Of a DNA stretch of 64,000 nt, positions 47,097 through 60,071 are shown piece after piece. A model generated the notes under the pieces. That model was given only the letters and a program-made list of their open reading frames with translations, was not told the origin of the DNA and did not search any database. The stretch lies in the NCBI RefSeq assembly GCF_000024345.1, contig NC_013729.1, positions 6,944,001-7,008,000 on the forward strand. The letters are read 5' to 3'. How positions within the stretch are numbered: the stretch's first letter is position 1; each line of letters opens with the position of its first letter. The stretch is from Kribbella flavida DSM 17836 (GTDB taxonomy: Bacteria > Actinomycetota > Actinomycetes > Propionibacteriales > Kribbellaceae). A program made the position numbers and the translations under genes.

Positions 47097-47124
47097 GATC
47101 AGGCGGTGGCGATCAGGCGGTGGC
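47097..47124. repeat. Perfect 14-bp tandem duplication at the end of the oxidoreductase gene
   Basis: GATCAGGCGGTGGC occurs twice without a gap (47097-47110 and 47111-47124). The second copy contains the stop codon and last codons of the minus-strand luciferase-like gene, the first lies just beyond. As 14 is not a multiple of three, the duplicate is out of frame and does not extend the protein. Looks like a slippage product. Confidence 0.75.
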
Positions 47125-48180
47125 GACGAAGTGCGGGGCCGAGCGCGGCACGGTGCGGATCGCCCGGGTCAGAGCCGCCGCGACCGTGCGGAGGATCGAG
47201 GAGCGCACCAGACCGTCGTACGCGAGTGGGGTGAGCATGATCTCGTCCGCGCCGGTGCTGGCGGCCAGGGTCGCCAGCCCGGAGGCCACCGTCGAGCGTG
47301 AACCGACGATGTGCCCCGGGTCGTCCAGCAGCCGCTCTGCCCGCCCACGCTCGCGGCCGGTGAGCGGCGGCGCCAGCAGTTCGAGCAGCTCGGCCGGAGT
47401 GGCCCGCAGCGAGGCCGTGCTCAGCCGGTGCTTCACCCGGACGTACTCCGCCAGCCGGTTCAGCGCCTCCTCGTCGGTGTCCGCGGCAACGATCCCGACG
47501 GACACCCCGAGGTACGGCTTGCCGGTCGGCCCGGTCGGCTCGAACGTGTCCCGGTACGCCGCCGCGGCCGCCACCGTCGCCTCCGACGCGGTGAGGAACA
47601 CCGGCAGCCCTCGTACCGCGGCCAGCTGCGCCGTCGCCGGCCGGTTCGCCAGGACGAACACCGGTGGTGGCAGCCCGGCCAGCGTGAGGCGGACGTCTCC
47701 GACGGGAACCCGTCCGGGCAGACCGTCACGCAGGAACCGGCAGAGCTCGTCCAGCCGCTGCGGGAAGGTCTCCCGCGCGTCACCGGACCAGCCCAGAGCG
47801 GCCGCGGTACAAGGTGCGGAGACGGCGCCCTCGCTGACGCCGAGATCGACCCGGCTCGGGTACGCCGCCGCGAGCGCCGCGAACTGCTCGGCGACCAGCA
47901 GCGGCTGGTGGTTGCCCAGCAAGATCCCGCCGGACCCGAGCCGGATCCGGTCGGTCCGGGCCGCCAGCACCGCGGCGAGCACCGCCGGCGACGCGCTGCC
48001 GAAGCCGCGCACCCCGTGGTGCTCCGCGAGCCAGAACCGGCGGAAGCCGAGATCGTCGGCCGCCTGGGCGACCTCCACGGTCTCCCGCAACGCGGCGGCG
48101 GCGGACTGGCCGGCCGGTTGCGGCACCACGTCGAGCACCGAGTGGGCGGAGACCGGGAGTCCGGGAGCTGGGCTGAACAC
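47113..48180 (-). CDS. Luciferase-like (LLM class) flavin- or F420-dependent oxidoreductase
   Basis: 355 residues, start GTG 48178-48180. The LLM TIM-barrel pattern is clear: LSVLD-type SAHSVLDVVPQPAGQSAAAA, GFRRFWLAEHHGVRGFGSAS, IRLGSGGILLGNHQPLLVAE, YPSRVDLGVSEG and GKPYLGVSVGIVAADTDEEA. Most relatives use FMN, some use coenzyme F420. It is divergent from lanM across 418 bp, and each gene has one copy of a 20-bp near-palindrome about 33 bp before its start, implying shared control. F420-dependent LLM reductases (LanJC) that reduce dehydroalanine to D-alanine are known from class V lanthipeptides; a similar role here is inference only. Confidence 0.88.
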   Translation of the reverse strand: MFSPAPGLPVSAHSVLDVVPQPAGQSAAAALRETVEVAQAADDLGFRRFWLAEHHGVRGFGSASPAVLAAVLAARTDRIRLGSGGILLGNHQPLLVAEQFAALAAAYPSRVDLGVSEGAVSAPCTAAALGWSGDARETFPQRLDELCRFLRDGLPGRVPVGDVRLTLAGLPPPVFVLANRPATAQLAAVRGLPVFLTASEATVAAAAAYRDTFEPTGPTGKPYLGVSVGIVAADTDEEALNRLAEYVRVKHRLSTASLRATPAELLELLAPPLTGRERGRAERLLDDPGHIVGSRSTVASGLATLAASTGADEIMLTPLAYDGLVRSSILRTVAAALTRAIRTVPRSAPHFVATA

Positions 48181-48213
48181 CTGCCCACCGTGTCACCTGT
48201 CCGCCGATCGCAC

Positions 48214-48233
48214 ATGGGGGATCCACCCCCATG
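48214..48233. promoter_or_regulatory. 20-bp near-palindromic operator, copy 1 (oxidoreductase side)
   Basis: ATGGGGGATCCACCCCCATG; the inner arms CATGGGGG and CCCCCATG (48213-48220 and 48226-48233) are perfectly inverted. It lies 33 bp upstream of the GTG of the luciferase-like gene. It matches copy 2 at 48547-48566 in 17 of 20 positions. A half-site ATGGGGG follows at 48261-48267. Confidence 0.75.
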
Positions 48234-48500
48234 TTCCGCACCCCCACCCGGCGCCGAAAGATGGGGGCCGACGGCTCTTGCCGGGCCGTTGACGCCTCAG
48301 GCATCGTTCTCGGCGTTCCAGCAGTTCGACCCGACAGCGGGAGGCCGGCCACGACGACCACGACCAGCGGGAACCGTCACGGTCTCTCGCCACACCTGGA
48401 TTCCTGACCCGGAAAGCCTTCCACCAGAGGCGGCCCGGGACAGGTCCTGCTGCCGCGGGGCGGTCAACCCCCAGTCACCGTCCCGCGGACAGCAGCAAAA

Positions 48501-48539
48501 CAAGCGTTTGCCGGACACGTACGTCGAAGCGAACGCTTG
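48501..48539. promoter_or_regulatory. Inverted repeat in the lanM promoter region
   Basis: CAAGCGTTTGC (48501-48511) and GCGAACGCTTG (48529-48539) are inverted with 10 of 11 positions matching, spaced by 17 bp. It stands just upstream of operator copy 2. Further upstream, CTGCTG-CCGCGGG (48447-48459) and CCCGCGG-A-CAGCAG (48482-48495) could form another stem. These may be activator sites for the LAL regulator at 51818 or a promoter-proximal structure. Confidence 0.45.
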
Positions 48540-48546
48540 CGGGAAT

Positions 48547-48566
48547 ATGGGGGTTCCATACCCATG
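48547..48566. promoter_or_regulatory. 20-bp near-palindromic operator, copy 2 (lanM side)
   Basis: ATGGGGGTTCCATACCCATG lies 32 bp before the GTG of lanM. It differs from copy 1 only at positions 8, 13 and 14. Equal spacing to the two divergent start codons argues that both genes answer to one regulator. Confidence 0.75.
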
Positions 48567-48598
48567 TCTTCTCGCGCGCCTGCTGCCACGCTGTCGGC

Positions 48599-51490
48599 GT
48601 GCTCGACTCAGCGACGGCGGCAACCGCCCATCCCACGGCCTGGTGGTCCGCTGGGCTGGCTCCGCACGAGTCCGGCGCGCAGCGCCCGGCCTGGGCGGAG
48701 TACATCGAGCGCAGTACCGCCACCACCCACGAGCCGGAGGCGGCAACCGGGGATTGGCAACACGATTTGCTCCGCTGCCTCGCTCCCCTGCTCGCCACCG
48801 CCCGCAACGACCTGCTCGCCGCCGGACACACCGGCCCGGTCACCGACCAGTTCCTGCAACGCCTGGGCCACCGCCTGCTCAAGCTGTCCGCCCGCACCCT
48901 GGTCCTGGAACTGCACCGCGCTCGGGTCCGCGGCGACCTGACCGGCGCCACCCCGAACGAACGTTTCCTGGATTTCACCCACCGGCTCGCAGGAGGGAGC
49001 GAGCTGGCGGACCTCCTGGCCGAGTACCCCGTCCTGGCCCGCATCCTGGGCGAGGCGTGCCGGCAGTCCGTAGCCGCCCACCACGAACTGCTGACCCGCC
49101 TCGCCGAGGACCGCGAACTGCTGGTCACCACGCTCTTCCACGGCCGCGACCCGGGCGAGCTCGCCGGTGTGGATCCAGGCGGCGACCCTCACCGGGGCGG
49201 TCGCTGCACGACCGTCCTCACTTTCGCCGACGGTCGCAAGGTCGTCTACAAGCCTCGGCCCCTGGATCTGCACGAGCACTTCAACCAAATCGTCGACTGG
49301 CTGAACAGCAGGACCGCCGCGGCCTTGCGCACCGTACGGATCGTCCGCCGCCCCGGCTACGGGTGGATGGAGTTCATCGAGCACGCGCCGTGCGACGACC
49401 TGGCCGCCGTACGCCGCTTCTACCACCGCCAAGGCGCTCTGCTGGCTCTGCTGTACGTGCTCGACGGCACCGACATGCACCACGAGAACCTCATCGCCGG
49501 CGGCGACCAGCCGGTTCTCGTCGACGTCGAGACGCTGTTCCATCCGGCCATGGCGAGCACCGGTCCGCTCGGTCAGGATCCAGCCCACACCGCCTTGCTC
49601 AGCTCGGTCTCCCGGACCGCACTGCTGCCATTGATGGTGGTCGGAGAGCACGGTGCCGCGGATCTGTCCGGCATCGGCGGCGACGACGGCGTAGCTCCCC
49701 ACGAGGTCGTCGACTGGGCGGATGCCGGACTCGACTCGATGCACCTCGTACGCCGCGCCGGCAAGAACCAGTACCGCGACAACCGACCTACTCTGCGCGG
49801 GTCGGTGACCGAGCCCAGGGACCACGAAGTCTCTTTGCTCGCAGGCTTTCGCAGCGCGTACGAAGCCATCGCCCGGCACCGCGCCGAGTTGCTCGGTCCA
49901 GCTGGCCTGCTCACCCGGTGCTCGGCAGACGAGATCCGCTACGTCCCGCGTCCTTCGCGGATCTACGCCACCCTGCTCGACGAGTCGACCCATCCCACTG
50001 CGTTGCACGATGCCGACGGCCACAGCTCACTGCTCGACCTGCTGTGGGATGCCAACCAGGAGCTGCGCCAGGTGGTGCCGTCCGAGCTCGCGGATCTCTG
50101 GTCGGGCAACATCCCGCTCTTCACCACGCGCCCGCAAACCCGTGACGTCTGGGCTTCCGACGGCACCCGGGTCCCGGGCCTGCTGAGGACGGAAGGCCTG
50201 GCAGCCGTCGAGGCGAAGGTCGCGGCGATGGGCGAGGTCGACCAGGACCGCCAGTGCTGGGTGATCTCCGCGAGCCTCGCCACTCGCCCCGCACCGGTGC
50301 TGCACTCGAGCACCGCCACCCGGCCGGGACTCGGGACCGCCGAAGCGGATCCGGAGCAGCTGCTCGCCGCCGCCACCGACATCGCGGACGAGGTGATGGC
50401 CCAGGTCCTCGGCGACAACGGCAGCCAGGCGAACTGGCTCGGCCTCGAACTGCTCGACGACCACCACTGGACGATCCTTCCCATGGGCGCCGGGCTCACC
50501 AACGGCTACCTCGGAACCGCGTTGTTTCTGGCCCAGACCGGAGTTCTCACCGGCGCGACCAAGTACTGCGAACTGGCGTACGACGCGATCCGCCCGATCC
50601 CCCAGGTGCTCGAGGTCTTGGCAGCGAGTCCCGACGCCGGGCAGACCGTCGGCGCCGGCCTGCACGGACTGGGCGGGATCAGCTACGGCCTCAGCAGGCT
50701 GGCCGAACTGCTCGACGACTCCAGCCTGCTCAGCTGGCTGGACCTGTCGCTCCAGCTGATGGAGAACGCAGCGTCCCGTTCCGAAGGCGTTCCGAGCTAT
50801 GTCGAAGGCGCCGCCGGGGGCCTCACCGCTGTGCAGGCGATCGGCAGCGGTCCACGGACGACGAAGCTTGCCGCCCAGTACGCCGACGAACTGCTCGCCG
50901 CTGTCAACCTTCACCTCCAGCAGGCCGAGCCGGCCGGCTTCGCGCGCGGCTACGCGGGAATCGCTTGGGCGCTGGGCCATTACGCCGCGGCAGATTCGCA
51001 GTACCACCACGCTGCCCGAGTCGCGGTTGAGCGAGCCGAGCAGACCACCGCAGCGAATCCGGGCTGGTGCTCCGGCCAGGCCGGGACGTTGCTCGCCGGT
51101 CTGCGCGCCGGTGGACCGGTCGACCTCGACGCCTACCTGCGCCACGCCACCGAACGTCCGATGCTCGCCGACCTGAGTCTGTGTCACGGCGAGCTCGGCG
51201 CGGTCGAGCCACTGTTGTGGCTGACCGAACGCGATCACCCAGCCGTTGCGGCCGTCCGGCGCCGCCGGGCCGGGCTGGTGCTCGCCGCAGTACAGCAGCA
51301 CGGACCGCAGTGCGGCACGCCGCGCGCCGTTCCCTCCCCCGGTCTGCTGACCGGCCTGGCGGGAATCGGCTACGGCCTGCTGCGCCTCGGCTTCCACGGG
51401 CAGATCCCGTCCGTGCTGCTGCAAGAACCGGCCCGGCCGGCGCCCATCACAGCGCCGGCGGGCCACCAACCGACAGGGGAGACATCATGA
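48599..51490 (+). CDS. lanM: LanM, class II lanthipeptide synthetase
   Basis: 963 residues from GTG 48599. The N-terminal DUF4135 dehydratase shows GRKVVYKPRPLDLHEHFNQI, PGYGWMEFIEHAPC, the catalytic loop GTDMHHENLIA (Asp292, His294, Glu296, Asn297) and LVDVETLFHP (Asp309, Glu311). The C-terminal LanC-like cyclase carries GAGLHGLGGISYGL and the zinc ligands Cys824 (GWCSGQAG), Cys862 and His863 (SLCHGELG). It should phosphorylate and dehydrate Ser/Thr and add Cys thiols in the peptide encoded directly downstream. No obvious ribosome-binding site precedes the start. The stop overlaps the precursor ATG (ATGA). No exporter or peptidase gene is linked. Confidence 0.94.
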   Translation: MLDSATAATAHPTAWWSAGLAPHESGAQRPAWAEYIERSTATTHEPEAATGDWQHDLLRCLAPLLATARNDLLAAGHTGPVTDQFLQRLGHRLLKLSARTLVLELHRARVRGDLTGATPNERFLDFTHRLAGGSELADLLAEYPVLARILGEACRQSVAAHHELLTRLAEDRELLVTTLFHGRDPGELAGVDPGGDPHRGGRCTTVLTFADGRKVVYKPRPLDLHEHFNQIVDWLNSRTAAALRTVRIVRRPGYGWMEFIEHAPCDDLAAVRRFYHRQGALLALLYVLDGTDMHHENLIAGGDQPVLVDVETLFHPAMASTGPLGQDPAHTALLSSVSRTALLPLMVVGEHGAADLSGIGGDDGVAPHEVVDWADAGLDSMHLVRRAGKNQYRDNRPTLRGSVTEPRDHEVSLLAGFRSAYEAIARHRAELLGPAGLLTRCSADEIRYVPRPSRIYATLLDESTHPTALHDADGHSSLLDLLWDANQELRQVVPSELADLWSGNIPLFTTRPQTRDVWASDGTRVPGLLRTEGLAAVEAKVAAMGEVDQDRQCWVISASLATRPAPVLHSSTATRPGLGTAEADPEQLLAAATDIADEVMAQVLGDNGSQANWLGLELLDDHHWTILPMGAGLTNGYLGTALFLAQTGVLTGATKYCELAYDAIRPIPQVLEVLAASPDAGQTVGAGLHGLGGISYGLSRLAELLDDSSLLSWLDLSLQLMENAASRSEGVPSYVEGAAGGLTAVQAIGSGPRTTKLAAQYADELLAAVNLHLQQAEPAGFARGYAGIAWALGHYAAADSQYHHAARVAVERAEQTTAANPGWCSGQAGTLLAGLRAGGPVDLDAYLRHATERPMLADLSLCHGELGAVEPLLWLTERDHPAVAAVRRRRAGLVLAAVQQHGPQCGTPRAVPSPGLLTGLAGIGYGLLRLGFHGQIPSVLLQEPARPAPITAPAGHQPTGETS

Positions 51491-51699
51491 CCGCCCAGCA
51501 CCCGCACGACGAGAACCTCGCCCAGCCCGCCACCGACCTCGAAGGCACCGACCCGCTCGGTCCCGTCACCTTGCCGAAGCGCAGCAAGATCGGTCGCCGC
51601 GCGCTCGCACTCGTCGGCACCACCAGCATGGCGGCGCTGGCGGTTCAGACTCTCGCCGACGGCTGCTCGACCTTCACGACTGTCGGGCACGAGCTTTAG
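51487..51699 (+). CDS. lanA: Class II lanthipeptide precursor peptide with a single cysteine
   Basis: 70 residues, ATG 51487 overlapping the lanM stop, with GGGGAGA three bases upstream. It opens with an acidic, polar part (MTAQHPHDENLAQPATDLEG), then a Pro-rich segment (TDPLGPVTLP), then a basic and hydrophobic segment (KRSKIGRRALALVGTTSMA) and ends AVQTLADGC-STFTTVGHEL. The only Cys is 11 residues from the C-terminus, with Ser/Thr on both sides. Immediate coupling to lanM is the main reason to call it the substrate. There is no classical GG cleavage motif; ADG before Cys is the closest. The basic-hydrophobic part also resembles a secretion signal, an alternative reading. Confidence 0.8.
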   Translation: MTAQHPHDENLAQPATDLEGTDPLGPVTLPKRSKIGRRALALVGTTSMAALAVQTLADGCSTFTTVGHEL

Positions 51700-51817: not shown

Positions 51818-54736
51818 ATGCGGACCCATGCGCCCAAGGTGGTCGGCAGGGATGGGGAGATCGAACAGCTCCACGACCTTTTGGCGGCTGCCCGTTCCGG
51901 CCATGGCGGTGCTGTCTTCCTGACCGGCGAGCCTGGCATCGGCAAGAGCCGGCTCGCCGCGGTAGGCACCACCGAGGCGCTGGATCACGGCATGGTCACT
52001 CTCCGGGGCCGGGTCGTCGCCATCGGTACGACGGTCGCCTTCCGGCCGTTCAGCGAAGCGCTGCTGTCGTTGATTCGCCGGGGAGAGATGCCCGATCCCG
52101 AAGTGCTCGGGCCGTACCGACGGGTACTCGCCCGGCTGATCCCGGACTGGGACGACGGAACCGCCGAGACCGCTGTCTCGGCGGTCGTGCTCGGCGAGGC
52201 GATCCTTCGGCTGCTCGGCACGGCCGGTCGCGATCGCGGCTGCCTGCTCGTCCTGGAAGACCTGCAGGGCGCGGATCCGGAAACGCTAGCCGTCGTCGAG
52301 TACCTGCTGGACAATCTCGAGGACCAGCCGATCGCGCTGATCGCGACCGTTCGCTCCGAACGCTGCCCCGCCGAGGTCGTGGCGCAACTGGCCGATCAGC
52401 GAGGCACTGCCACGCTGACAGAACTCCGTCCTCTCGACCGGGACCAGGTCCGCGAGCTCGCGGCCAACCGGCTCGAGGTCGGGCCGGAAGCCGTCCCGGA
52501 CCAGCTCGCCGATCGCCTCTGGACCGACAGCGCCGGCATCCCCTTCATCGCCGAGGAGTTGCTGCAGGAAGCCAGCAGGTCGGGCCAACTGCTGGCCGGT
52601 GGCGACGGTGTGGTGCAGGTTGCCGACGACCTCCGGATGACCATTCCGGCCGCTGTGGTGCACAGCATCAACAGCCGGACCGACCAGTTGGGTCCACAGT
52701 CCCGAGAGCTGCTTGTCCTGGCAGCGGTGATCGGGCACCGTTTCCCGCTGAGCGTGGTCCGGCAAGCCAGTGCGATCGACGAACGGCAACTGCTCGCCAC
52801 CCTGCGGGCCGGCCTGGCCGCACAGCTGGTCGGGCCGGACGAACCGGTTCCCGACTGGTACGCGTTTCGCCATCCGTTGACCGCCGAGGCACTGCTCGCC
52901 GGGCTGAACCCGACCGAGCGTGCGACGTTGGCCGGCCGGTGCGCCGACGCAATCGAGTTGCTCCACCCCGGGCTGCCGGGCGAGTGGTCGTTGATGGTCG
53001 CGGAACTGGCCGAGACCGGCGGGAACCCGGCACGTGCGGCACGGTTGTTCGCCGAGGCAGGGCGGAGGGCCTTCGACGAGGGTTCGCTCGGCAGTGCGGC
53101 GCGGCTGCTCGATCGCGCTTTCACCTTGCTGGCCGACGATCCAGATGTCGAGTACCGTGCGGACGTGCTGGGCTCCCTGCTGCTCGCGCTCGGCGAGACA
53201 GGGCAGTTCGAGCACCCGGCCGCCCGGCCGGAGCTTGTCGACCACCTGGCAAGTCGCGGTCTGGACAGTCGCAACGTGGCCCGGCTTCACGTCCGTCTCG
53301 CGGAGTTCAACTACTCCGCCAGTCGCTGGTCCGCTGCGATTTCGCACATCGGCTCCGCCCGAGCCCTGCTCGGACCGGAGGCCGGCGACGCCGACCTCGC
53401 CCCGCTGGAGGCGATCGCGGCGGCGGTCGAAATGACCAGGACCAGTCCGGGCCGGCTCAAGTCGGCCACCGAGCTGGCCACCCGGGCCGCGGAGGCCGCG
53501 CAACGCGCGAACCTGCCGACGGTCGAAGCCGATGCGTGGCAACTGCTCGGCATCCTCGCTCGGGAACACGATCTCGAGCAGTCGATCAGGTACTTCCAGC
53601 GCGCTCGGCAGGTAGCCACCGACAACAACATGGGGCTGCAGCGCGTCGTCGCGCACATCTTCCAGGCGGGCACCATCTACCTCGCCGACGGTGACGGCAC
53701 CGAGCTGGAGACGGCCAGGCAGCAGGCGCTGAAGATCGGGGCGATCCCGAGCGCTTACGACGTCGACCGAATCCTTGCCCAGCAAGCCGTGCTCAGAGCC
53801 GAGTACGACGTGGCCGCGGTGAAGATCGAGGAGTGCCTGGAGGTCACCCGGCGGCTCAAGCTCGGCCGCGGCGCGCCGTACGTGCTGGTGACCAAGGCGA
53901 TGCTGGCCGGCCATCAGTGCCGGCGCGCCGCGATGGAGCAGACCCTCGCCGAACTTGCCGAGTACGGCGAGAGAGCGTCGCACGAGCTGCCGGTGTCCTT
54001 CGGACTGGCGCGGACCTTCTGTGCGCTGCTCGAGGAGAACCGCGAGCTCGCCGAGAACGAGATGGCCCAGGCGCTGGCCTACGACGCCCAGAACCCGAGC
54101 ATGTTCCATCTGGCGGGCAAGAACGGTGTCGGGCTCCTGCTCGGCGTACTCGCCGGCCGAAACAGCTGGGAACACCTTGAAGCGGTGATGGCCACCGCGG
54201 CCAGCCGGATGCGCTGGAACCGGCAATTTGTCCAGTTGGCGCACGCTGTCCTGCTGGGACGGGACGGACGCGCCGAGGAAGCCTCGGCGATGGTCGACGA
54301 GGCGCTGCAAACCGCCGAGATCTATCCGATGGCACGCCACCTCGGTCTGCGGCTGGTGGCCGAGCAGGCGGCGGCCGACGGATGGGGCGATCCCGTGCTC
54401 TGGCTCCGGCTGGCGGAGGAGCACTTCCACCGCGCCGACGTACCGGCTGTCGCCAGTGCCTGCCGGAGCATGTTGCGGCAGCTCGGGGCGACCGTGTCGC
54501 AGCGGCGGTCGGGCAGTGATCAGGTGCCGGCGCATCTGCGGCAGTTGGGGATCACCACCCGGGAGTACGAGGTCTGCCTGTTGCTGGTGGATCGGATCGG
54601 GAACAAGTCGATCGCGTCGCGGTTGCACATCTCTCCCCGTACCGTGGAGAAGCACGTGGCGAGTTTGATGACCAAGACGCGGCAGCCGGATCGTGAGGCG
54701 TTGAGCAGCTTCGCGCGGACGGTGTTGCAGGACTGA
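51818..54736 (+). CDS. LAL-type (large ATP-binding LuxR) transcriptional regulator
   Basis: 972 residues. N-terminal AAA+/STAND-type ATPase with Walker A GEPGIGKSR (residues 37-45) and Walker B LLVLEDLQGAD (about 143-153), a long helical TPR-like middle (about 400-890), and a C-terminal LuxR helix-turn-helix (about 908-965): LGITTREYEVCLLLVDRIGN, KSIASRLHISPRTVEKHVAS. LAL proteins are usually activators of secondary-metabolite or sugar genes in Actinobacteria. It follows the class II lanthipeptide genes in the same direction and is the obvious candidate for their activator, possibly through the 20-bp repeats upstream of lanM. Confidence 0.93.
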   Translation: MRTHAPKVVGRDGEIEQLHDLLAAARSGHGGAVFLTGEPGIGKSRLAAVGTTEALDHGMVTLRGRVVAIGTTVAFRPFSEALLSLIRRGEMPDPEVLGPYRRVLARLIPDWDDGTAETAVSAVVLGEAILRLLGTAGRDRGCLLVLEDLQGADPETLAVVEYLLDNLEDQPIALIATVRSERCPAEVVAQLADQRGTATLTELRPLDRDQVRELAANRLEVGPEAVPDQLADRLWTDSAGIPFIAEELLQEASRSGQLLAGGDGVVQVADDLRMTIPAAVVHSINSRTDQLGPQSRELLVLAAVIGHRFPLSVVRQASAIDERQLLATLRAGLAAQLVGPDEPVPDWYAFRHPLTAEALLAGLNPTERATLAGRCADAIELLHPGLPGEWSLMVAELAETGGNPARAARLFAEAGRRAFDEGSLGSAARLLDRAFTLLADDPDVEYRADVLGSLLLALGETGQFEHPAARPELVDHLASRGLDSRNVARLHVRLAEFNYSASRWSAAISHIGSARALLGPEAGDADLAPLEAIAAAVEMTRTSPGRLKSATELATRAAEAAQRANLPTVEADAWQLLGILAREHDLEQSIRYFQRARQVATDNNMGLQRVVAHIFQAGTIYLADGDGTELETARQQALKIGAIPSAYDVDRILAQQAVLRAEYDVAAVKIEECLEVTRRLKLGRGAPYVLVTKAMLAGHQCRRAAMEQTLAELAEYGERASHELPVSFGLARTFCALLEENRELAENEMAQALAYDAQNPSMFHLAGKNGVGLLLGVLAGRNSWEHLEAVMATAASRMRWNRQFVQLAHAVLLGRDGRAEEASAMVDEALQTAEIYPMARHLGLRLVAEQAAADGWGDPVLWLRLAEEHFHRADVPAVASACRSMLRQLGATVSQRRSGSDQVPAHLRQLGITTREYEVCLLLVDRIGNKSIASRLHISPRTVEKHVASLMTKTRQPDREALSSFARTVLQD

Positions 54737-56668: not shown

Positions 56669-56717
56669 GCTGACCACTCGGCACACGGCTGTGACACTGC
56701 AGTGGGATGATCACTGC

Positions 56718-59700
56718 GTGTCAGGGCAACAGGCCATCCCGAAGTGGCAGCAGTCGGCAGCCGGCTGGGTAGGTCTGGCGGTCGTCAGCGCGGCCATCTG
56801 GTCGTTCGTCGCGGTCCCGCTGCACCTGGTCGCTCCCGAGGTGGTGAAGCGGGTCGAGGGAGTCATCGACTTCACCGGCATCCCGGCCGGGCACACGTTT
56901 CTCTCCGCGGTCTACCTGGCTGTCGTCGGCAGCGCGCTGCTGCGCGGCAAACGAGCTGCCCTGCTCTGGGTGCTGTGGGTTTTCGAGGGCCTGACGCTGG
57001 TCACCCAGATCGCCGCGCTCGGCTTCATCAGCGTGCGGATCGCGAACCCGAACGACCCCGACCTGATCGCCGAGTTCGGCCGCGCCTCGATCGAGGACCT
57101 GGAGGTCGGCATCGTCCGGGTGCTCGTGCCGGCGCTGCTGATCGTGCTGCTGTGGCGGATCCGGGACAGCTTCCCCGCCCGGCTCGCCCCGGGCAGCCGG
57201 CGGGTGGCGATCGGCGTACTGGTCACCGGCCTGCTGATCTCGATCGCGGTCAGCATCGCGCTGACCCAGGTCGTCCCGAACACGCTGCAGGGCCAGAAGG
57301 AGAAGATCGGCTGGGCGGTGTTCTCCGCCTTCGGCCAGAGCCGGGCGCGGATGGGTTCCGGGCACGAGGGGCATGCCTGGGTCGGGCTGACCGTCGGCTT
57401 CCTGTCCGCCGCTTCGCTGGTGATCGCGTTCTGGATCTTCCTGCGCTCGGTCCGCCGGGTCCGCTACCTCAGCCAGGCCGAGGAGCTGCAGGTCCGTCGC
57501 CTGCTGCTCCAGTACGGCGAACGCGACAGCCTCGGCTACTTCGCCACCCGGCGCGACAAGGCCGTCGTCTTCGCGCCCGGCAACGACGCCGCGATCGCGT
57601 ACCGGGTGGTGAACGGGGTCAGCCTGGCCAGCGGCGACCCGCTCGGCGACCCGGCGGCTTGGCCCGGCGCGATCGAGCAGTGGCTCGCCGAGGCCCGCAT
57701 CTACGGCTGGTCCCCGGCCGTTCTGTCGGCCAGCGAGGAGGCCGCCCGCGCGTACGTCGACGCCGGGCTGCGGGCGCTCGCGATGGGGGACGAGGCGATC
57801 ATCGACGTCGCCGACTTCAGCCTCGAGGGCCGGACGATGCGGCCGGTCCGGCAGGCCGTCACCCGGGTCCAGCGAGCCGGCTACCACGCTCAGGTCGTCC
57901 GGCACGGCGACCTCGCGCCGGACGACCTCGCGCAGTACGTCGAGCTGGCGGAGCGGTGGCGCGGGGCGCGGACCGAGCGCGGGTTCTCGATGGCGCTCGG
58001 CCGGCTCGGGGACGCCGCCGACGCGCGCTGCGTGATGGTGATCGCGCGGGACGCCGGCGGCGCCGTGCGCGGCCTGCTCTCGTTCGTGCCGTGGGGCGTG
58101 CGCGGTGTCTCGCTGGACCTGATGCGCCGCGACCCGGAGTCGGTGAACGGGTTGATGGAGTTCATGGTCACCGCGCTGGTGGACGCCTGCGGCGATCTCG
58201 GCGTGCACCGGATCTCGCTGAACTTCGCGATGTTCCGGGAGATCTTCAGCGACGCCGAGCGGGTCGGCGCCGGGCCGGTGCTGCGGCTGACGAACGCGCT
58301 GCTCACCGCGGCCTCGCGGTTCTGGCAGCTGGAGAGCCTCTACCAGTCGAACGAGAAGTACCTGCCCCGCTGGTCCCCGCGGCTGATCTGCTACTCGCGG
58401 GGCGCTTCGCTCGCGCAGGTGCTGCTCGCGGCCGGGACCGCCGAGGGGTTCCTGCCGGCGCCGCGGCCGTGGACCCGGGTCGACGCCCGCAGTACCGCGG
58501 ACCGCAACGCCATCGCGGTCGGCGACGACGGCCGGTTCGCGATCACCGTGCAGGAGCAGGAGGACGAGCTGCTCCGGCCCGCGCTGCCGGACCGCCGGCT
58601 CACCGAGCAGGAACGCATCCGGCGGGCCAAGTCGTCCGCGATGGTTGCTGAGGGCATCGATCCGTACCCGGTCTCGGTGCCGAGGACCGAAACCCTGGAG
58701 CGGATCCTCGCGCTGCACCAGAACCTGCCGCCCGACCACCACACCGGTCACCACGTCTCGGTCACCGGGCGGGTGATGCGGCTGCGCGACCACGGCAACC
58801 TGGCGTTCGCCCAGCTGCAGGACGGCCTCGACCAGCTGCAGGTGATGCTCGCGGCCGGCACCTGCCCGGCCGAGGACCTGCGGAACTGGGACCGGTTCGT
58901 GGACATCGGCGACCACGTCAGCGTCACCGGCGAGGTGGTGACGAGTCGCCGGGGCGAGCTGTCGGTCGCGGTGACCGGCTGGACGATGGCGGCCAAGTGC
59001 CTGCACCCGTTGCCGGACAAACGCAAGGGTTTCACCGATCCCGAGGCCCGGGTCCGGCAGCGCCACCTCGACCTGGTGACGAACCCGGACGCGCTGCGGA
59101 TGCTGCGGCACCGCAGCACCGCGGTACGGGCCCTGCGGCACGGGTTCGAGGCGCGCGGATTCGTCGAGGTGGAGACGCCGATGCTGCAGGCGGTGCACGG
59201 CGGGGCGAACGCGCGGCCGTTCGTCACCCACATCAACGCCTACGACACCGACCTGTTCCTGCGGATCGCGCCGGAGCTGTTCCTCAAGCGGCTCGGCGTC
59301 GGCGGACTCGGCAAGGTCTTCGAGCTGAACCGCAACTTCCGCAACGAGGGCGCCGACGCCACCCACAACCCCGAGTTCACCTCGGTCGAGGCGTACCAGC
59401 CGTACGCCGACTACCACGTGATGCGCGAGCTGACCCGGGAGCTGCTGCTGGAGACGGCCGTCGCGGTGTTCGGCAAAGCGGTGGTCCAGCGCGACGGTGC
59501 GGAGCTCGACATCTCCGGCGACTGGCCGGTCGTCACCGTGCACGACGCGGTCAGCCGCGCCGCCGGGGTCACGATCGACCCCGGTACGCCGGTCAGCCGG
59601 CTGCGGGAGATCTGCGCGCAGCACGGCGTCCGGGCCGGCTTCGACCTGTCGGCCGGCGAGCTCGTCCTCGAGCTGTACGACGAGCTGGTGGAGCCGCGGA

Positions 59701-60071
59701 CCACGCTACCGACGTTCTACACCGACTTCCCGCTGGAGACGTCGCCGCTGCCCCGGGGCCACCGCACCGATCCGCGGCTGGCCGAACGCTGGGACCTGGT
59801 CGCCTTCGGCGCGGAGATCGGTACGGCGTACTCGGAGCTGGTGGACCCGGTCGAGCAGCGCCGGCGGTTGACCGAGCAGTCGCTGAAGGCGGCCGCGGGC
59901 GACCCGGAGGCGATGTCGCTGGACGAGGACTTCCTGGCCGCGCTGGAGTACGCGCTGCCGCCGACCGGTGGGCTCGGGCTGGGCGTCGACCGGATCCTGA
60001 TGATGCTGACCGGCCAGAACATCCGGGCCACGCTGGCCTTCCCGTTCGTCCGTCCCACCCCCCGGAGCTGA
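56718..60071 (+). CDS. lysX: LysX, lysylphosphatidylglycerol synthase fused to lysyl-tRNA synthetase
   Basis: About 1,117 residues. Six or more N-terminal membrane helices (about 1-235), then a DUF2156/phosphatidylglycerol lysyltransferase domain (about 250-590, with VRRLLLQYGERDSLGYFATR, KAVVFAPGNDAAIAYRVVNG and VHRISLNFAMFREIF). An OB-fold anticodon-binding domain follows (VSVTGRVMRLRDHGNLAFAQ) and finally a class II synthetase core with motif 2 FELNRNFRNEGADATHNPEF and motif 3 GLGLGVDRILMMLTG. It charges tRNA with Lys and transfers it to phosphatidylglycerol, lowering membrane charge and giving resistance to cationic peptides. That may matter in a strain making two lanthipeptides. GTG 56718 is chosen; GTG 56691 is possible. 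Confidence 0.93.
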   Translation: MSGQQAIPKWQQSAAGWVGLAVVSAAIWSFVAVPLHLVAPEVVKRVEGVIDFTGIPAGHTFLSAVYLAVVGSALLRGKRAALLWVLWVFEGLTLVTQIAALGFISVRIANPNDPDLIAEFGRASIEDLEVGIVRVLVPALLIVLLWRIRDSFPARLAPGSRRVAIGVLVTGLLISIAVSIALTQVVPNTLQGQKEKIGWAVFSAFGQSRARMGSGHEGHAWVGLTVGFLSAASLVIAFWIFLRSVRRVRYLSQAEELQVRRLLLQYGERDSLGYFATRRDKAVVFAPGNDAAIAYRVVNGVSLASGDPLGDPAAWPGAIEQWLAEARIYGWSPAVLSASEEAARAYVDAGLRALAMGDEAIIDVADFSLEGRTMRPVRQAVTRVQRAGYHAQVVRHGDLAPDDLAQYVELAERWRGARTERGFSMALGRLGDAADARCVMVIARDAGGAVRGLLSFVPWGVRGVSLDLMRRDPESVNGLMEFMVTALVDACGDLGVHRISLNFAMFREIFSDAERVGAGPVLRLTNALLTAASRFWQLESLYQSNEKYLPRWSPRLICYSRGASLAQVLLAAGTAEGFLPAPRPWTRVDARSTADRNAIAVGDDGRFAITVQEQEDELLRPALPDRRLTEQERIRRAKSSAMVAEGIDPYPVSVPRTETLERILALHQNLPPDHHTGHHVSVTGRVMRLRDHGNLAFAQLQDGLDQLQVMLAAGTCPAEDLRNWDRFVDIGDHVSVTGEVVTSRRGELSVAVTGWTMAAKCLHPLPDKRKGFTDPEARVRQRHLDLVTNPDALRMLRHRSTAVRALRHGFEARGFVEVETPMLQAVHGGANARPFVTHINAYDTDLFLRIAPELFLKRLGVGGLGKVFELNRNFRNEGADATHNPEFTSVEAYQPYADYHVMRELTRELLLETAVAVFGKAVVQRDGAELDISGDWPVVTVHDAVSRAAGVTIDPGTPVSRLREICAQHGVRAGFDLSAGELVLELYDELVEPRTTLPTFYTDFPLETSPLPRGHRTDPRLAERWDLVAFGAEIGTAYSELVDPVEQRRRLTEQSLKAAAGDPEAMSLDEDFLAALEYALPPTGGLGLGVDRILMMLTGQNIRATLAFPFVRPTPRS

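Follow-up and report, generated by a model that had tools for sequence, protein, structure and literature searches.

Paired palindromic sites point to one regulator for a lanthipeptide synthetase gene and a divergent luciferase-like oxidoreductase gene in Kribbella flavida

Does a gene for a luciferase-like oxidoreductase that is transcribed away from a class II lanthipeptide synthetase gene belong to the lanthipeptide locus, and which regulator might tie the two together? The question arises in a stretch of 64,000 nucleotides from Kribbella flavida DSM 17836 (NC_013729.1, positions 6,944,001 to 7,008,000; hereafter the window), in which the synthetase gene lanM and the oxidoreductase gene are divergent. 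The original prediction, made from the sequence of the window, held that two similar 20-bp sites at equal distance from the two start codons are operators of one regulator, perhaps the LAL protein encoded at 51818, and that the oxidoreductase is thereby part of the lanthipeptide locus. LAL regulators are found in many natural-product clusters of actinomycetes, and their operators are hard to define. Several of them are encoded inside antibiotic clusters (PMC3282765). Here we report a computational analysis of the two sites in the window, in the host genome, in the genus and in wider samples.

Both sites were confirmed. The 20-mers at 48214-48233 and 48547-48566 are identical in 17 of 20 positions, and each contains a symmetric 19-mer of the form ATGGG-N9-CCCAT (48214-48232 and 48547-48565) that lies exactly 33 nt from its GTG start codon, at 48180 on the minus strand for the oxidoreductase and at 48599 on the plus strand for lanM. 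The equal spacing is exact on these 19-mers; the distances of 33 and 32 bp for the 20-mers differ because the 20-mer carries one extra G. The oxidoreductase operator (minus strand) reads ATGGGGG-ATCCA-CCCCCAT (pattern ATGGGGG-N5-CCCCCAT), has arms that reach CATGGGGG/CCCCCATG (48213-48233) and is preceded by GAAC (48236-48233). The lanM operator (plus strand) reads ATGGGGG-TTCCA-TACCCAT and is preceded by GAAT (48543-48546). Relative to the predicted start codon, both are centred at -43.

One count favours the view that two unrelated palindromes resemble each other by chance: a scan of the host genome (7,579,488 bp, single contig) for ATGGG-N9-CCCAT returned these two places only, and the reversed pattern also matched two places. 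The copy number is therefore not above chance, and the count was not used as evidence. The degenerate 20-mer with up to three mismatches gave two sites in the window (mean of 0.00 in window shuffles) and five in the 7.58 Mb of the genome, including these two, with none for the reversed control, so that the many unrelated copies that had been proposed as a refuting result were not encountered. The co-location of the two sites, 333 bp apart, and their placement before start codons are above chance.

The genus sample comprised 38 genomes, in which lanM homologues were collected at E <= 1e-60. Of the forty lanM places fetched, 37 are main loci from as many genomes (L051-L087) and the other three are secondary loci (L088-L090). 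Both lanM and the LAL gene were present in 37 of the 38 genomes, and the oxidoreductase gene in 34. TGGG-N9-CCCA precedes lanM at all 37 main loci and the oxidoreductase gene at all 34 loci that have it; the full ATGGG-N9-CCCAT is retained at 37/37 sites on the lanM side and 25/34 on the oxidoreductase side. For lanM, the predicted start lies 33 nt (4 loci) or 34 nt (33 loci) from the operator; for the oxidoreductase, it lies 33 nt (21 loci) or 34 nt (13 loci) away. Open reading frames extend from the predicted starts of all 34 oxidoreductases and of the 37 lanM genes (954-995 amino acids). The distance between the operators varies from 46 to 486 bp, and the encoded proteins share 62-69% (LanM; 53% in genome G031) and 66-93% (oxidoreductases) identity with those of the window. 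Information content reaches 1.5-2.7 bits in the columns of ATGGG and CCCAT and stays below 0.5 bits in every lanM-side flank column from -25 to -7. Read in the same direction relative to each gene, the operator is preceded by AAAT (21 loci) or GAAT (16) on the lanM side and by GAAC (23), GAAG (7), AAAC (3) or AACT (1) on the oxidoreductase side. The pattern ATGGGKGNNNNNYMCCCAT matches 37 of the 38 genomes, with three matches for the reversed control; among the matches listed, all are at lanM loci except one place (G004:C303). The genome that has neither lanM, LAL nor oxidoreductase gene (G022) has no match to ATGGGKGNNNNNYMCCCAT, and two genomes that lack the oxidoreductase gene also lack its operator and retain that of lanM (G020, G033).

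A chance likeness is thus untenable, because both sites and their spacing, together with the -10 element described below, are conserved in 34 congeneric genomes with diverged flanks, and we regard it as so improbable that it needs no further consideration. The claim that the equal placement is hard to explain by chance was borne out. Footprinting across the genus loci and the shared promoter geometry strongly support the reading of both sites as operators of one regulator. Conservation extends further on the oxidoreductase side than on the lanM side: at 23 of 34 loci, the oxidoreductase operator has an additional TGGGKG half-site 16-21 nt upstream of it, which none of the 37 lanM promoters has; in the window, TGGGGG occurs at a shifted place, 9-14 nt upstream of the oxidoreductase operator (minus strand, 48241-48246).

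What would such a regulator do at these promoters? The operator consensus is approximately RAAY-ATGGGKG-N5-YMCCCAT-G, and from its centre to the predicted start codon downstream the distance is about 43 bp. Putative -10 elements are CACGGT for the oxidoreductase (48187-48192, minus strand) and CACGCT for lanM (48587-48592, plus strand); counted from the start codon, A stands at -11 and T at -7 in both. An A-N3-T pair at 23/27 or 24/28 nt past the operator end is found at 37/37 lanM sites, 34/34 oxidoreductase sites and 27/28 sites of a second genus, which amounts to 98 of 99 sites with a -10-like NANNNT at fixed distance; at other offsets the pair occurs at a mean of less than one site per set. 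The sequences are related, so these counts are not independent trials; the geometry is nevertheless shared by two genes and two genera. TTGACA-like -35 elements at the usual distance reached at best 4/6 matches in 8 of the 37 lanM promoters and at most 3/6 in the rest. Given a transcription start 7 nt past the -10 element, the message would begin on the GTG codon and be leaderless. An operator centred near -43 would correspond to the layout of a class II activator.

A repressor could also occupy these sites: the palindrome spans about -52 to -34, where a bound protein could block the polymerase, and both genes would then be released on induction. This arrangement is unlikely in view of the lack of a good -35 hexamer at the expected place, the fixed phasing of 23/24 nt to the -10 element and the MalT/LAL type of the encoded candidate. 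Known regulators of this type are mostly activators. One LAL protein, SCO6993, has been reported as a repressor (PMC9628970).

With the same promoter geometry in mind, three further 3-mismatch sites in the host genome were considered as targets, one with a fitting -10 spacing and two without, and were set aside because one fit among so few is near chance. The fitting site (L003, genome positions 377192-377211), with its matching A-N3-T spacing, may be a third target at a level near chance.

The candidate regulator proposed at the outset is the LAL protein encoded behind lanA, the precursor gene that follows lanM (51818-54736, plus strand; 972 amino acids), here a proposed activator. It combines, in one large protein, an N-terminal AAA_16 ATPase domain (PF13191 at 7-175) and a C-terminal GerE/LuxR helix-turn-helix (PF00196 at 913-959), as is typical of the LAL family. 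Its association with the operator was followed into a second genus, taken to be Streptomyces, by scanning 392 genomes with a similar operator pattern. This yielded 27 sites in 26 genomes and none for the reversed control. Because GAAY was required in this pattern and in the class-wide one, and AAAT precedes 21 of the 37 lanM sites of the first genus, both counts are lower bounds. Directly before lanM lie 21 of the 27 sites; a LAL homologue was found in the fetched stretch of 21 of the 26 site-bearing genomes, 20 of which also have lanM. Four of the five without a LAL match concern contigs of 3.3 and 5.5 kb (L146, L125) or sites less than 200 bp from a contig end (L131, L132), and the fifth is locus L129. 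The site and the LAL gene occur together in several gene orders, with LAL behind lanM, with LAL divergent across the site (L038) and with LAL and the site in the absence of lanM (L128). A lanM locus of the first genus that lacks LAL (L090) has no site before lanM. Among 394 genomes across the class, a longer GAAY pattern matched the host genome and one unrelated place (in G401), which was taken as chance: its A/T pair fits, but no lanM or LAL match lies within about 10 kb on either side.

In the second genus, the operator also stands before other kinds of genes. No lanM match was found at L128 (7444-7700), where LAL and the operator stand before a gene for a short peptide (C-terminus SLYSPDGC) and a PqqD/M50-like frame; the PqqD/M50 reading was made by eye, and Pfam gave no such match for the open reading frames tested. 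At L121 and L125, an operator with a fitting -10 element precedes a gene that by eye resembles a SARP-type regulator and is divergent from lanM.

The explanation that we consider well supported and clearly the most probable is that one dedicated activator, most likely the LAL protein, acts on the promoter of lanM-lanA and on that of the oxidoreductase, both of them almost leaderless. In the presence of its signal, the LAL protein would bind the operator in place of a -35 element and recruit RNA polymerase by class II activation, and transcription would begin on the GTG codon or no more than one or two bases from it. One promoter would serve lanM-lanA and the other the luciferase-like oxidoreductase. 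Both genes are thus very probably turned on together, and with separate promoters under one activator, the oxidoreductase would be made together with the lanthipeptide machinery.

Several observations weigh against parts of this scheme. At two secondary loci with lanM and LAL (L088, L089), all that is present are sites in degenerate or rearranged form; the losses in G020 and G033 may be one event rather than two, because their flanks are alike; the -10 spacing does not hold at L038, although the operator fits there, and it also fails for the sites in front of the class III genes in G031 and G004. The choice of an activator over a repressor draws solely on the operator position and the missing -35 element. 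The remaining points concern the identity of the regulator. One genome of the second genus (G726, locus L129) has a site without a lanM or LAL match in the approximately 9 kb seen on each side, and three LAL paralogues without lanM (L091-L093) have no site in the 13.8 kb fetched for each, with recognition helices nearly identical to those of LAL proteins that do have a site. Comparison of the recognition helices failed to separate the LAL proteins with a site from those without, so it is co-occurrence rather than specificity that points to this LAL protein. On these grounds, one regulator encoded elsewhere might serve both sites, with the LAL protein a neighbour in another role. The joint travel of site and LAL gene over two genera and several gene orders (L038, L128), and the missing site before the lanM gene without LAL (L090), speak against such an arrangement, which we consider improbable. 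The LAL protein remains the most likely regulator of both sites; the original suggestion is supported by its co-occurrence with the operator in two genera and stays short of proof.

How firmly does this attach the oxidoreductase to the lanthipeptide locus? The gene (47113-48180, minus strand) starts with GTG and encodes 355 amino acids with a PF00296 match (E 5.2e-40); the product scores 264 bits against TIGR03558 (cut-off 166.95), which places it in the MsnO8 subfamily, and it also matches PDB 4us5 (E 2.6e-35). In an order-wide scan of 293 genomes (E <= 1e-70, best 7 candidates per genome), close orthologues were found in 34 genomes, all of this genus and all beside lanM. Directly behind the oxidoreductase gene lies an aldehyde dehydrogenase gene, which all 38 genomes of the genus possess. 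The oxidoreductase could therefore be co-regulated with lanM and yet be paired with the dehydrogenase in ordinary metabolism, away from the peptide. Its presence in every genome means that the dehydrogenase does not explain the joint pattern of oxidoreductase and lanM; it occurs without the oxidoreductase in G020, G022, G031 and G033, and close oxidoreductase orthologues are found, among those best candidates, only with the lanM cluster. A purely metabolic partnership is accordingly a minor but serious alternative, less likely than a role within the locus.

Two genomes carry other genes behind operators of this type. Opposite lanM in G031 stand a short peptide gene (recognized by eye) and then a class III LanKC gene (NF038151, 675 bits) instead of the oxidoreductase, preceded by the operator GAAT-GTGGGTG-CTGGC-AACCCAT with another -10 spacing. 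The exceptional place G004:C303 has two operators before the same kind of peptide and LanKC. Because the sites in G031 and G004 precede a peptide gene and LanKC, the second operator would mark the partner gene of a lanthipeptide system. By eye, a class III-like precursor (ending HTDGSGVSYNC) was seen behind the operators in these two genomes (L153, 12566-12584; L151, 9863-9941, minus strand).

Co-regulation therefore supports the membership of the oxidoreductase in the class II locus, as does the restriction of its close orthologues to the cluster (34/34), and to this extent the original prediction stands. That the enzyme acts on the peptide is a further step that we infer, with a tailoring or self-protection function as the probable role.

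The neighbouring genes are consistent with a class II system. LanM (48599-51490, plus strand; GTG start, 963 amino acids) matches TIGR03897 with 782 bits (cut-off 304) and combines a DUF4135 dehydratase domain (PF13575) with a LanC-like cyclase domain (PF05147); C824, C862 and H863, which in this family serve as the zinc ligands of the cyclase, are invariant at 37/37 loci. The precursor gene lanA (51487-51699, plus strand) encodes 70 amino acids with the C-terminal part ...ADGCSTFTTVGHEL; it ends in DGCSTFTTVGHEL, and its core contains Ser/Thr and Cys. Its ATG overlaps the lanM stop codon by 4 nt (ATGA, 51487-51490), for which reason lanA is probably in the lanM transcription unit; the overlap also suggests that enzyme and substrate are translationally coupled. 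Of the 37 main loci, 30 have next to lanM a precursor that shares this leader motif. At the other seven (L067, L068, L071, L073, L075, L083, L087) there was no match to the leader motif, and at L071 a precursor of this type is visible among small Cys-containing open reading frames.

Although the zinc ligands are invariant, the 30 main loci with a precursor include 16 at which none of the precursors found has a Cys among its 22 C-terminal residues (L052, L059-L062, L065, L069, L070, L072, L074, L077, L078, L080, L082, L084, L085). Further downstream in the window (56691-60071) is a gene for a LysX-like protein with fused phosphatidylglycerol lysyltransferase and lysyl-tRNA synthetase domains.

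Luciferase-like enzymes have precedents in such clusters. GarO of actagardine is an enzyme of this family in a class II lanthipeptide cluster. LanJC of birimositide, a luciferase-like reductase of a class II cluster, is proposed to reduce dehydrated residues (PMC7268733). The likeness to the present oxidoreductase consists in PF00296, a family-level feature common to many unrelated enzymes; the present enzyme belongs to the MsnO8 subfamily. Formation of a sulfoxide in the manner of GarO was considered as its function and fits poorly at loci whose precursors are without Cys; for those loci, a precursor elsewhere in the genome is possible.

The operator itself resembles known elements without matching them. 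The heptamer of NarL is TACYYMT, arranged 7-2-7; the lanM-side half TACCCAT fits this heptamer, but orientation and spacing differ (AKRRGTA-N5-TACYYMT). The operator of the PAS-LuxR regulators PimM and PteF (CTVGGGAWWTCCCBAG) is a GGG...CCC palindrome that occupies the -35 region in promoters of antibiotic genes and is read by a LuxR-type helix-turn-helix (PMC9774167). The half-sites and the -35 position are alike, but the spacing is GGG-N4-CCC there and GGG-N9-CCC here, so that CTVGGGAWWTCCCBAG does not fit; the outer bases here are AT/AT, preceded by RAAY, no PAS domain was matched in the LAL protein, and the regulon, as observed so far, comprises one or two promoters. The LAL protein shares its ATPase domain and C-terminal LuxR helix-turn-helix with PikD and SCO6993. 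For SCO6993, it was reported that no consensus site could be predicted (PMC9628970), whereas a strict consensus over two genera is found here. A search of titles and abstract openings in the open-licence literature returned no paper on this operator or on the regulation of this locus. The sites represent an operator and a regulon that are new but belong to a known kind, the LuxR-type palindrome in the -35 region.

It is conceivable, though we hold it only tentatively, that LAL and palindrome form a portable module placed on varied ribosomal-peptide systems, namely LanM (37 genomes of the genus; lanM, LAL and site together in 20 genomes of the second), LanKC (G031, G004) and a PqqD/M50-like short-peptide system (G762), and that in this genus LanM products, many of which are free of Cys, are modified by an otherwise unplaced luciferase-like enzyme under the command of the module.

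This operator shows which neighbouring genes belong to the locus, here the oxidoreductase gene, whose membership is doubtful from gene order alone. A strict operator with a fixed promoter geometry provides a searchable key to lanthipeptide loci via their regulation, and it offers a defined target for the activation of silent clusters.

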